A stretch of DNA of 64,000 nt from Geopseudomonas sagittaria (GTDB lineage Bacteria > Pseudomonadota > Gammaproteobacteria > Pseudomonadales > Pseudomonadaceae), in contig NZ_FOXM01000011.1 in NCBI RefSeq assembly GCF_900115715.1, positions 1 through 64,000 on the forward strand, written 5' to 3'. This document shows positions 11,405 through 12,959 of the stretch, piece by piece; position 1 is the first letter of the stretch; each line of letters begins with the position of its first letter. The notes under the pieces were generated by a model. That model was not told the DNA's origin. It ran no database searches and saw only the letters and a list, made by a program, of their open reading frames with translations. A program made the position numbers and the translations under genes.

Positions 11405-12217
11405 TCAGTCGATGGCGATGATGACGTGGGATGCCTTGATCAGCGCGGTGCAGGGCTGGCCGGTGGCCAGGCCCAGCTCGCTGACGCTGTCGAGGGTGAC
11501 CACCGCGCTGAGGGTGCGCCCGCCCGGCAGCAGCAGTTTCACCTCGCAGTTCACCGCGCCGGGAATCAGCGCGCAGATGGTGCCGGTCAGGCGATTGCGC
11601 GCGCTGATCTTCACCTGCGGATCGGGCGAGAGCAGCACGAAGCTGGCCTTGATCAGCGCCATGGCGGTCTTGCCCGGGGCCAGCTGCAGCTCGTCGATGC
11701 TGTCGTTGGTCAGGGTGGCGACGATGTTCAGGCCATCGCCGAGATCGAGGGTCAGGATGCCGTTGACGGCGCCTTTCTCGACCTGGCTGATGCGGCCGCG
11801 GAACTGGTTGCGTGCGCTGGTCTTCATGGCGATGGCCCTCAGCAGGCGGTCGATGTCGTCGAACTGTTCGATGCCCTGGGCCACCTGGGCTAGAAAGCGC
11901 TCGTACTCGCCCTGCATGCGCCGCCAGACGTGGAGCATCTCCCGGCCGAAGTCGGTCAGCCGGGTACCGCCGCCCTGCGCGCCGCCGGCCGAGCAGACCA
12001 CCAGCGGCCGCTCGGACAGGTTGTTCATGGCGTCCACCGCATCCCAGGCGGCCTTGTAGCTGAGCTTGATCTGCTTGGCGGCGCGGCTGATCGAGCCGGT
12101 GGCCTCGATCTGTTCCAGCAGCTCGATGCGCTTGCCGCCCAGGTAGCCCTTTTCGCCGCGGTTGAACCAGAGCTGGCCATCCACGCGCAGTGGGCCGGGT
12201 GTCTGTGGGTCGCTCAT
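11405..12217 (-). CDS. modE: ModE, molybdate-responsive transcriptional regulator
   Basis: 270 residues. The N-terminal winged-helix DNA-binding domain reads [37 protein letters not shown]. Two tandem Mop/TOBE molybdate-binding domains follow, starting near [11 protein letters not shown] and [12 protein letters not shown]. When molybdate is bound, ModE normally represses the mod operon and can activate molybdoenzyme genes. The start at 12217 is preceded by AAGGAGCT; 28 additional upstream residues are possible but have no such site. It is the first gene of the mod operon. A ModE-like operator and a nif-type promoter precede it, so the operon may answer both to Mo status and to NifA. Confidence 0.96.
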
Positions 12218-12253
12218 GGCAGCTCCTTGCGTGCGGTTGGTGACGATGACGAT

Positions 12254-12270
12254 TGCAAAAAGGCGACCAG
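12254..12270 (-). promoter_or_regulatory. Sigma-54 promoter of the modE-modA-modB-modC operon
   Basis: On the minus strand TGGTCG-N5-TTTGCA, with GG and GC exactly 10 bp apart, about 37 bp before modE. It departs from TGGCAC at two positions. The matching IHF and NifA sites upstream raise confidence. Confidence 0.7.
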
Positions 12271-12299
12271 TTTCCGGTACGCCAGGTGTTCGCCTTTGC

Positions 12300-12312
12300 A
12301 ATCAATGGCTTG
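12300..12312. promoter_or_regulatory. IHF-consensus site of the modE promoter
   Basis: AATCAATGGCTTG, identical to the site in front of nif11, lies between the modE -24 box and its NifA site. Confidence 0.7.
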
Positions 12313-12348
12313 CGTGCTTTTGCAGGCCTGTCGACAGGGCCTGTGGTT

Positions 12349-12364
12349 TGTCCGGGATGCGACA
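12349..12364. promoter_or_regulatory. NifA upstream activator site of modE
   Basis: TGTCCGGGATGCGACA fits TGT-N10-ACA. It is centred about 113 bp from the expected modE transcription start, within the usual range for NifA sites. Confidence 0.75.
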
Positions 12365-12374
12365 GTTATGCCGG

Positions 12375-12398
12375 CGCTATGTCGTTTTGTATATAGCG
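12375..12398. promoter_or_regulatory. ModE-box-like palindrome
   Basis: CGCTATGTC (12375-12383), a 6-bp spacer, and TATATAGCG (12390-12398) match the ModE operator pattern CGCTATATA-N6-TATATARCG, with two mismatches in the left half. It lies between the NifA sites of the divergent modE and iscA-nifU promoters, where ModE could influence either unit. Confidence 0.75.
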
Positions 12399-12457
12399 CT
12401 ACACGCACAGCGCCGCTCGCGGTCGTTGCGCGGTACTGCGGGTGTCGGCGTCGCGCT

Positions 12458-12473
12458 TGTCGCAAACCCGACA
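12458..12473 (+). promoter_or_regulatory. NifA upstream activator site of iscA-nifU
   Basis: TGTCGCAAACCCGACA, identical to the nifE site, including one extra T on the left. It is centred about 128 bp before the expected start of transcription. Confidence 0.9.
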
Positions 12474-12525
12474 TTGGCCGCTGCACGTCCTTTTCGCGAC
12501 AGCCGCGGGTGTCGGCGTTGATCGC

Positions 12526-12538
12526 CAATCCATTGATA
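12526..12538. promoter_or_regulatory. IHF-consensus site of the iscA-nifU promoter
   Basis: On the minus strand TATCAATGGATTG matches WATCAANNNNTTR exactly. It lies between the NifA site and the -24 element. Confidence 0.75.
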
Positions 12539-12566
12539 TCAAAGGGAATTTTCTGCTCCATCGGCG

Positions 12567-12582
12567 TGGCATGGCGGTTGCA
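12567..12582 (+). promoter_or_regulatory. Sigma-54 promoter of the iscA-nifU-nifS operon
   Basis: TGGCAT-N5-GTTGCA with the invariant GG (12568-12569) and GC (12580-12581) exactly 10 bp apart, 54 bp before the iscA start. Confidence 0.9.
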
Positions 12583-12635
12583 ACGGCTGTCCTGCCGGTT
12601 GGCTCAAGCCACCGCAGAGCCGAGGAGACACGCCG

Positions 12636-12959
12636 ATGATTACCATGACCGACAGCGCGAAGAGTGCCGTTACCCGCTTCATCAGCAGCACGGACAAGCC
12701 GGTCGCCGGCTTGCGTATCCGCGTCGAGGGCGGCGGCTGCTCCGGGCTCAAGTACAGCCTGAAACTGGAAGAAAGCGGTGCCGAGGGCGACCAGCAGCTC
12801 GACTGCGGCGGCATCACCCTGCTGATCGACGACACCAGCGCGCCACTGCTCGCCGGCGTGACCATGGACTTCGTGGAAAGCATGGAGGGCAGCGGCTTCA
12901 CCTTCGTCAATCCGAACGCCAGCAACAGCTGCAGCTGCGGCAAATCCTTCGCCTGCTAG
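12636..12959 (+). CDS. Nif-specific IscA/HesB Fe-S carrier protein
   Basis: 107 residues of the A-type Fe-S carrier family. It has the three conserved cysteines: one in GGGCSGLKY and two in the C-terminal CSCGKSF. It probably carries iron or Fe-S clusters from NifU to nitrogenase components; Azotobacter calls the equivalent gene iscA-nif. GAGGAGAC upstream sets the start. It is the first gene of the long operon running to clpX, driven by the NifA/IHF/sigma-54 promoter just upstream. Confidence 0.94.
   Translation: MITMTDSAKSAVTRFISSTDKPVAGLRIRVEGGGCSGLKYSLKLEESGAEGDQQLDCGGITLLIDDTSAPLLAGVTMDFVESMEGSGFTFVNPNASNSCSCGKSFAC

Follow-up and report, generated by a model that had tools for sequence, protein, structure and literature searches.

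In the nif island of Pseudomonas stutzeri A1501, the genes modE-modABC (PST1348-PST1345) lie beside hesB (PST1349). The same gene order is found in the DNA analysed here, a stretch of 64,000 nucleotides from Geopseudomonas sagittaria (contig NZ_FOXM01000011.1, positions 1 to 64,000; hereafter the window). Part of it is a Pseudomonadaceae nif cluster: the minus strand encodes modC-modB-modA-modE (8757-12217), and from 12636 the plus strand encodes iscA-nifU-nifS-nifV and further genes; the names nifS and nifV are our assumption from the translations. The start codons of modE and iscA are 418 bp apart, and in this intergenic region a candidate NifA site overlaps a predicted operator for the molybdate-responsive regulator ModE.

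According to the available part of the A1501 account, NifA and RpoN consensus sequences are listed for the PST1348 operon as well as for the hesB operon, and under nitrogen fixation PST1348 was up-regulated 3.9-fold and hesB 20.9-fold (PMC2820453). Eleven predicted operons, PST1348-1345 included, were reported there to be almost fully repressed in nifA and rpoN mutants (qRT-PCR, data not shown in that paper). After transfer of the A1501 island into E. coli the mod operon was induced about 7-12-fold, as stated in the accessible part of PMC6053447. The A1501 text, as far as it is available, mentions neither a ModE operator nor an overlap with a NifA site, and calls PST1348 only a "putative molybdenum-binding protein" (PMC2820453). 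Gene order suggests that PST1348 is modE. A second related system is morAB of Rhodobacter capsulatus, which is divergent from morC and encodes a molybdate-type transporter. Its expression strictly requires NifA (lacZ fusion) and is repressed by molybdenum (Mo) via the ModE homologues MopA and MopB (PMC6925177, available part), and both kinds of control are proposed here for the window.

A sequence-only reading of the region had described two complete nif-type promoters pointing outwards, with a ModE palindrome between their NifA sites. All of these sites were confirmed letter for letter and are contained in the 418 bp (Table 1). A third NifA-type site of the form TGT-N10-ACA, which overlaps the ModE operator, had been missed in this inventory. 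We refer to the three upstream activating sequences (UAS) as UAS1 (proximal to iscA), UAS2 (overlapping the operator) and UAS3 (proximal to modE). UAS3 starts 79 bp and UAS2 118 bp from the end of the modE -24 element, and 94 bp lie between the end of UAS1 and the iscA -24 element; the usual distance of a NifA UAS from the -24/-12 promoter is roughly 80-150 bp. On both sides the sequence features of a nif-type promoter are thus present: UAS spacing, GG-N10-GC and an IHF site between UAS and promoter. The predicted operator is a 24-bp palindrome of the CGTTATAT...ATATAACG type, located upstream of modE and the mod genes and conserved together with modE.

The consensus strings of the motifs, including the E. 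coli-type ModE consensus, are general background, and chance expectations were estimated from 5000 dinucleotide shuffles of the 418-bp region. Three TGT-N10-ACA sites were found in 0/5000 shuffles and two in 15/5000; two exact IHF sites (WATCAANNNNTTR) were likewise found in 0/5000. A sigma-54 score equal to that of the iscA -24/-12 element was reached in a fraction of 0.0004. The ModE box agrees with the E. coli-type consensus at 14/20 positions, and at least 14/20 was obtained in a fraction of 0.0062 of the shuffles. A chance origin of the site cluster was rejected on the basis of these shuffles.

UAS2 starts exactly 39 bp from UAS3. The ModE half-site at 12390-12398 is located wholly within UAS2, and the outer UAS2 triplet (12401-12403) lies beyond the operator, so ModE binding does not by itself explain why this triplet is constant. 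That constancy was seen in an alignment of 13 distinct nif-linked modE/iscA intergenic regions; one further locus, L053, was left out because it is too diverged (loci are given by L numbers where they have to be told apart). All six TGT/ACA columns of UAS2 are invariant in the 13 loci, compared with 7/262 background columns, and the same applies to the six triplet columns of UAS1. For UAS3 only one of six columns is invariant: the site is exact in 10/13 loci, is present as TGT-N10-ACG at the same place in two and is absent in one. The spacing between UAS2 and UAS3 is 39 bp in 10/10 loci with both sites exact, and the two TGT-N10-ACG variants are also found at 39 bp. At the modE -24/-12 position GG-N10-GC was scored in 12/13 loci. 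Mean identity was 0.96 for the iscA -24/-12 element, 0.81 at the specified positions of the modE-side IHF site and 0.74, with no invariant column, for the iscA-side IHF site. An alignment in related diazotrophs had been proposed as a check in the sequence-only reading, and the 13 loci provide one. Judged from these comparisons, the overlap of UAS2 and the ModE operator looks to be under selection.

The two halves of the composite site are lost separately, depending on which partner genes are missing. In the loci with both nif and modABC (group a), operator and UAS2 are both kept in 8/8 distinct Pseudomonadaceae loci. For the window and for L024-L030, modABC was directly observed; six of the latter stand in for L002, L003, L010, L018, L019 and L021, with which they share identical upstream sequence. 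Group (b) consists of five distinct loci (L011, L012, L014, L016, L017) in which modE is linked to nif and has no modABC beside it; this absence was checked beside modE, on the stretches L149-L153. In group (b) the identity of the operator halves to the window is 0.62 and 0.73; the corresponding values are 0.94 and 1.0 for group (a), and the background is 0.35. The UAS2 triplets remain at an identity of 1.0 in all five group (b) loci. L014 is negative in the automated count, since the script, faced with an eroded palindrome, chose another stretch; UAS2 is present in its alignment. All five group (b) genomes encode another ModE elsewhere, which clusters with the type of genus g17 (taken by us to be Azotobacter). 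The solitary nif-linked modE genes (L149-L153), several of them on long tree branches, retain a helix-turn-helix (HTH) and both TOBE domains, with one HTH match slightly under the Pfam cut-off.

Group (c) comprises 17 Pseudomonadaceae loci with modEABC and without nifD (TIGR01282). A ModE-type box is located upstream of modE in 17/17 of them, and the outer UAS2 triplet is absent in 17/17. In two of these loci, L031 and L038, the flanks align with nif-positive loci; these two lack UAS2 and UAS3, and their intact box has the same sequence as the boxes of L010, L018 and L021. Outside the family, the Moraxellaceae locus L045 (Fluviicoccus, nifD present) has the same composite, with TGTCGCGTTATGTACA over a ModE palindrome, accompanied by a further UAS at a distance of 40 bp and by a sigma-54 site; this composite is found at modE, 1.8 kb from iscA. 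On the ModE tree the composite label requires four changes, at least three of them forced by well-supported branches. Thus, the match between composite and nif is not a single event.

These groups also bear on the possibility that UAS2 is no NifA site at all. TATACA occurs in the ModE consensus, so a TGT that drifted into place upstream of it in one ancestor might account for the motif; the ModE box includes the inner UAS2 triplet, and the linked loci may share ancestry. However, both triplets persist in the five loci with an eroded operator, the outer one is absent from all 17 nif-free loci, and the distance to UAS3 does not vary among the ten loci with both exact sites. We consider such drift improbable.

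The following scheme has, in our estimation, a slightly better than even chance of being correct: the region would be a bidirectional NifA/sigma-54 control region in which Mo-loaded ModE damps modEABC by covering UAS2. Rightwards, NifA at UAS1 would fire the strong iscA-nifUSV promoter with IHF-assisted looping. Leftwards, NifA at the tandem sites UAS2 and UAS3 would fire the weaker sigma-54 promoter of modE-modABC, so that molybdate import would rise with nitrogenase synthesis. When molybdate is plentiful, Mo-loaded ModE on its operator would exclude NifA from UAS2 and modEABC transcription would fall, while UAS3 may permit residual expression; the outcome would be a NifA-AND-NOT-Mo gate. ModE and NifA would then compete for the same DNA in a composite operator, and the sigma-54 promoter would be controlled by enhancer occlusion, not by polymerase block, a part of the scheme to which we give even chances. 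ModE would have to bind at this site, and iscA would probably be spared. The sequence-only reading had suggested that NifA switches on molybdate import directly. The sites and their conservation support this, as do the A1501 data (available parts of PMC2820453 and PMC6053447), and the interpretation as a whole is borne out in part.

The main rival is a separate ModE-repressed sigma-70 promoter. ModE would repress a residual promoter of this type in or beside the box, which is the probable arrangement in the nif-free relatives, NifA would independently drive the downstream sigma-54 promoter, and the overlap with UAS2 would be incidental. Nif-free Pseudomonadaceae loci lend this some weight: inspection by eye showed a CAGAAT element closely after the box in 16/17 of them, and the box starts 55-62 bp before modE in 15/17, as for a repressed core promoter. 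CACAAT is found at that place in 4/8 modABC-linked nif loci, again by eye. CAGAAT itself, however, was seen by eye in 0/8 nif-linked modABC loci, and a search of 12200-12640 for a sigma-70 consensus promoter found none, which leaves no obvious promoter for a direct block by ModE. The two-input arrangement also leaves the outer ACA of UAS2 unexplained, which is invariant in the 13 nif-positive loci and absent in the 17 nif-free loci. We therefore regard it as unlikely, though as a serious contender.

Several points weigh against the occlusion scheme. The modE -24/-12 element is weak (score 8.5) and was equalled in 46% of shuffles; it is not significant alone, so its support lies in conservation, and in L011 the scan finds no GG-N10-GC at this place. 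UAS3 is outside the ModE box, and NifA could therefore still act there with ModE bound. The TGT triplet of UAS2 is inside the box, so the ACA alone separates the two functions, and only the geometry of the sites suggests mutual exclusion. The operator halves of group (b) are above background and thus eroded, not gone, and some ModE binding may persist in these loci. L053, a nif-linked and highly diverged locus with no modABC in the 6 kb examined, does not have the central composite. The loci are related, so the counts are not independent events, and the ModE tree is compatible with gain of the overlap in nif-positive lineages as well as with its loss in nif-free ones.

According to the sequence-only reading, ModE might tune either promoter or both. 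The ModE box is indeed located between them, 169 bp from the iscA -24/-12 element, and occupation of UAS2 could affect the supply of NifA to iscA. ModE might thus also, or mainly, control iscA-nifUSV and couple iron-sulfur scaffold synthesis to molybdate. Four genus mates without linked modEABC (L004-L007) are informative here. In two of them, L005 and L006, another ModE-like palindrome (CGTTATAT...CAATAACG) is found about 250-360 bp upstream of iscA, which would fit control of iscA; this palindrome, however, overlaps a sigma-54-like site directed away from iscA, towards a small gene, and no ModE-like box was found upstream of iscA in L004 and L007. All four keep the UAS and the -24/-12 element before iscA. 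In the group (b) loci the operator is eroded and the UAS1 triplets are invariant, and in L045 the operator is at modE, remote from iscA. The genus mates, the erosion in group (b) and the arrangement in L045 favour the modE promoter as the predicted target, and the earlier suggestion is narrowed accordingly towards the mod promoter; an additional effect on iscA is possible. ModE acting mainly through iscA was rejected on account of the genus mates and group (b), and any control of iscA-nifUSV has, in our view, a low probability.

ModE activates some promoters of E. coli, and the box is located far upstream of the -24/-12 element, a typical position for an activator. Mo-loaded ModE might accordingly aid NifA or IHF, so that Mo would raise nif or mod transcription. 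Overlap with a NifA site would be a poor design for co-activation, however, and Mo represses ModE-family importer operons in Azotobacter vinelandii (modEA1B1C1) and R. capsulatus (available parts of PMC9542535 and PMC6925177). Activation by ModE is very improbable.

In a wider survey 92 modE loci were reduced to 85 distinct ones by dropping identical 450-bp upstream sequences: 14 linked to nif, 30 unlinked in genomes with nifD, 40 in genomes without it and one of unknown nifD status (for L069 and L084, nifD was accepted from partial matches under the cut-off). The combination of a UAS and, 60-200 bp further on, a sigma-54-like site (score at least 8) was found upstream of modE in 13/14 nif-linked loci, in 8/30 unlinked loci with nifD, in 0/40 without nifD and in the single locus of unknown status. 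Six of the eight unlinked loci are of the Azonexus/Dechloromonas type (L084, L087, L090, L091, L092, L097), the others being L098 and L045. In these six the sigma-54 element adjoins or overlaps a ModE-like box, and L098 has no such box there. The ModE-like box is located at the sigma-54 -12 and not, as in the window, at the UAS; because the geometry is different, these loci provide parallel support only. Some loci do not obey a simple rule: the sigma-54 element is kept in L088, which has neither a nifD match nor a UAS; L083, L093 and L099 have nifD without an exact UAS; and L075 has a UAS without nifD. Altogether, the Azonexus/Dechloromonas-type mod operons (L084, L087, L089-L092, L097-L099) share a conserved sigma-54-like element, TGGCCCG-N4-TCGC. 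All except L099 have a NifA-type UAS, and in most, L098 being an exception, a ModE-like box lies beside the element.

An order-level search matched NifU in 16/390 genomes, 15 besides that of the window. No modE was found beside iscA in these 15 loci, within about 1.1 kb upstream of iscA, which was itself found in 13/15. In L104, from another family of the Pseudomonadales, iscA is divergent from modA and no modE match was found in the stretch examined; the modA-iscA region contains one UAS, sigma-54-like sites on both strands and no ModE composite. In L158, of genus g17, nif11 and iscA flank a modC relative (50% identity) and no modE was matched, so that a different mod operon seems to occupy the same place.

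The regulator assumed in the scheme is encoded in the window. The modE product has the N-terminal winged HTH and tandem Mop/TOBE domains of a ModE regulator; two TOBE domains and HTH_1 score above the Pfam cut-offs, Mop (TIGR00638) scores 156 bits, and ModE_repress (TIGR00637) reaches 91.1 bits, slightly under its cut-off of 98.5. It matches the E. coli ModE structure 1b9m with an E value of 3.8e-34 and the ModE of Pseudomonas linyingensis at 99%, and is the single ModE-type match in the genome assembly (E<=1e-12). A NifA gene scoring above the TIGR01817 cut-off is present in the genome. Downstream of modC, a Nif11-family gene (8358-8576, minus strand) has its own TGT-N10-ACA at 8701-8716, an IHF-like AAATCAATGGCTTG and an apparent -24/-12 element spaced GG-N9-GC, one short of the norm. 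PST1344 occupies the same place in A1501, and the available part of PMC2820453 lists NifA and RpoN consensus sequences for it.

Table 1. Sites and genes around the modE-iscA intergenic region (positions in the window).
Feature	Position	Strand	Sequence	Basis or remark
modC, ATPase	8757..9902	-		TIGR02142, 517 bits
modB, permease	9926..10609	-		TIGR02141, 245 bits
modA, molybdate-binding protein	10629..11390	-		TIGR01256, 231 bits
modE	11405..12217	-		270 aa; HTH and tandem Mop/TOBE domains
modE -24/-12 (sigma-54)	12254..12270	-	CTGGTCGCCTTTTTGCA	GG-N10-GC
IHF-type site, modE side	12300..12312	+	AATCAATGGCTTG	exact WATCAANNNNTTR
UAS3, modE-proximal NifA site	12349..12364		TGTCCGGGATGCGACA	TGT-N10-ACA; sequence letters
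ModE operator (predicted), 24-bp palindrome	12375..12398		CGCTATGTCGTTTTGTATATAGCG	sequence letters
UAS2, third NifA-type site	12388..12403		TGTATATAGCGCTACA	TGT-N10-ACA; overlaps ModE operator by 11 bp
UAS1, iscA-proximal NifA site	12458..12473		TGTCGCAAACCCGACA	sequence letters
IHF-type site, iscA side	12526..12538	-	TATCAATGGATTG	exact WATCAANNNNTTR
iscA -24/-12 (sigma-54)	12567..12582	+	TGGCATGGCGGTTGCA	GG-N10-GC; score 11.5
iscA-type gene (hesB), opens the iscA-nifUSV operon	12636..12959	+		TIGR00049, 124 bits
nifU	13017..13988	+		TIGR02000, 503 bits

The arrangement might match metal supply to nitrogenase: import would be raised together with the nitrogenase programme, and sufficient Mo could veto it at this very DNA. 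Because the NifA site overlaps the site of the Mo sensor, the cell could cut molybdenum import at sufficiency. When nif islands are transferred, as was done with that of A1501 into E. coli (PMC6053447, available part), the Mo supply may change, depending on whether a ModE-type protein of the host recognises the box. The natural series of loci with both partners, with nif only and with mod only is a compact test case for the evolution of composite operators, and its logic can be read from genomes alone since each half of the site is lost with its partner.

The modE1 operon of A. vinelandii lies outside the nif cluster. In this species the importer operon modEA1B1C1 is repressed by its own ModE, and a putative ModE site accompanies the sigma-54 promoter of anfA; unlike in the window, no NifA UAS overlapping a ModE site is described in the available text (PMC9542535). 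The modE-modA1B1C1 operon of Azoarcus olearius BH72 is induced under nitrogen fixation, but the accessible parts of PMC3916325 and PMC8467165 describe no analysis of NifA or ModE sites in its promoter. In R. capsulatus, mopA-modABC is likewise a nitrogen-activated and Mo-repressed mod operon, although its activator is NtrC with RpoD and not NifA with RpoN (PMC6925177, available part). The morAB promoter is closer, and as in its dual control, NifA and ModE site types are combined in one Mo-transporter promoter of the window. R. capsulatus differs in being an alphaproteobacterium, and MorABC was not shown to be important for Mo supply; the geometry of Mo-box and NifA site was not found in the available text (PMC6925177). 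The sequence-only reading had taken a NifA-driven mod operon with an embedded ModE box to be without a standard description. The A1501 data show that a NifA-driven mod operon is not new (PMC2820453, available part), and with the published control of morAB by NifA and the ModE family its combination with ModE-type repression has precedent as well (PMC6925177, available part). For a NifA UAS overlapping a ModE operator, or for the separate loss of the two, our searches of the open-licence PMC literature gave no description in the parts that were accessible. Compared with these systems, it is the putative composite NifA/ModE site that appears to be new here, and the comparative evidence for it is good.

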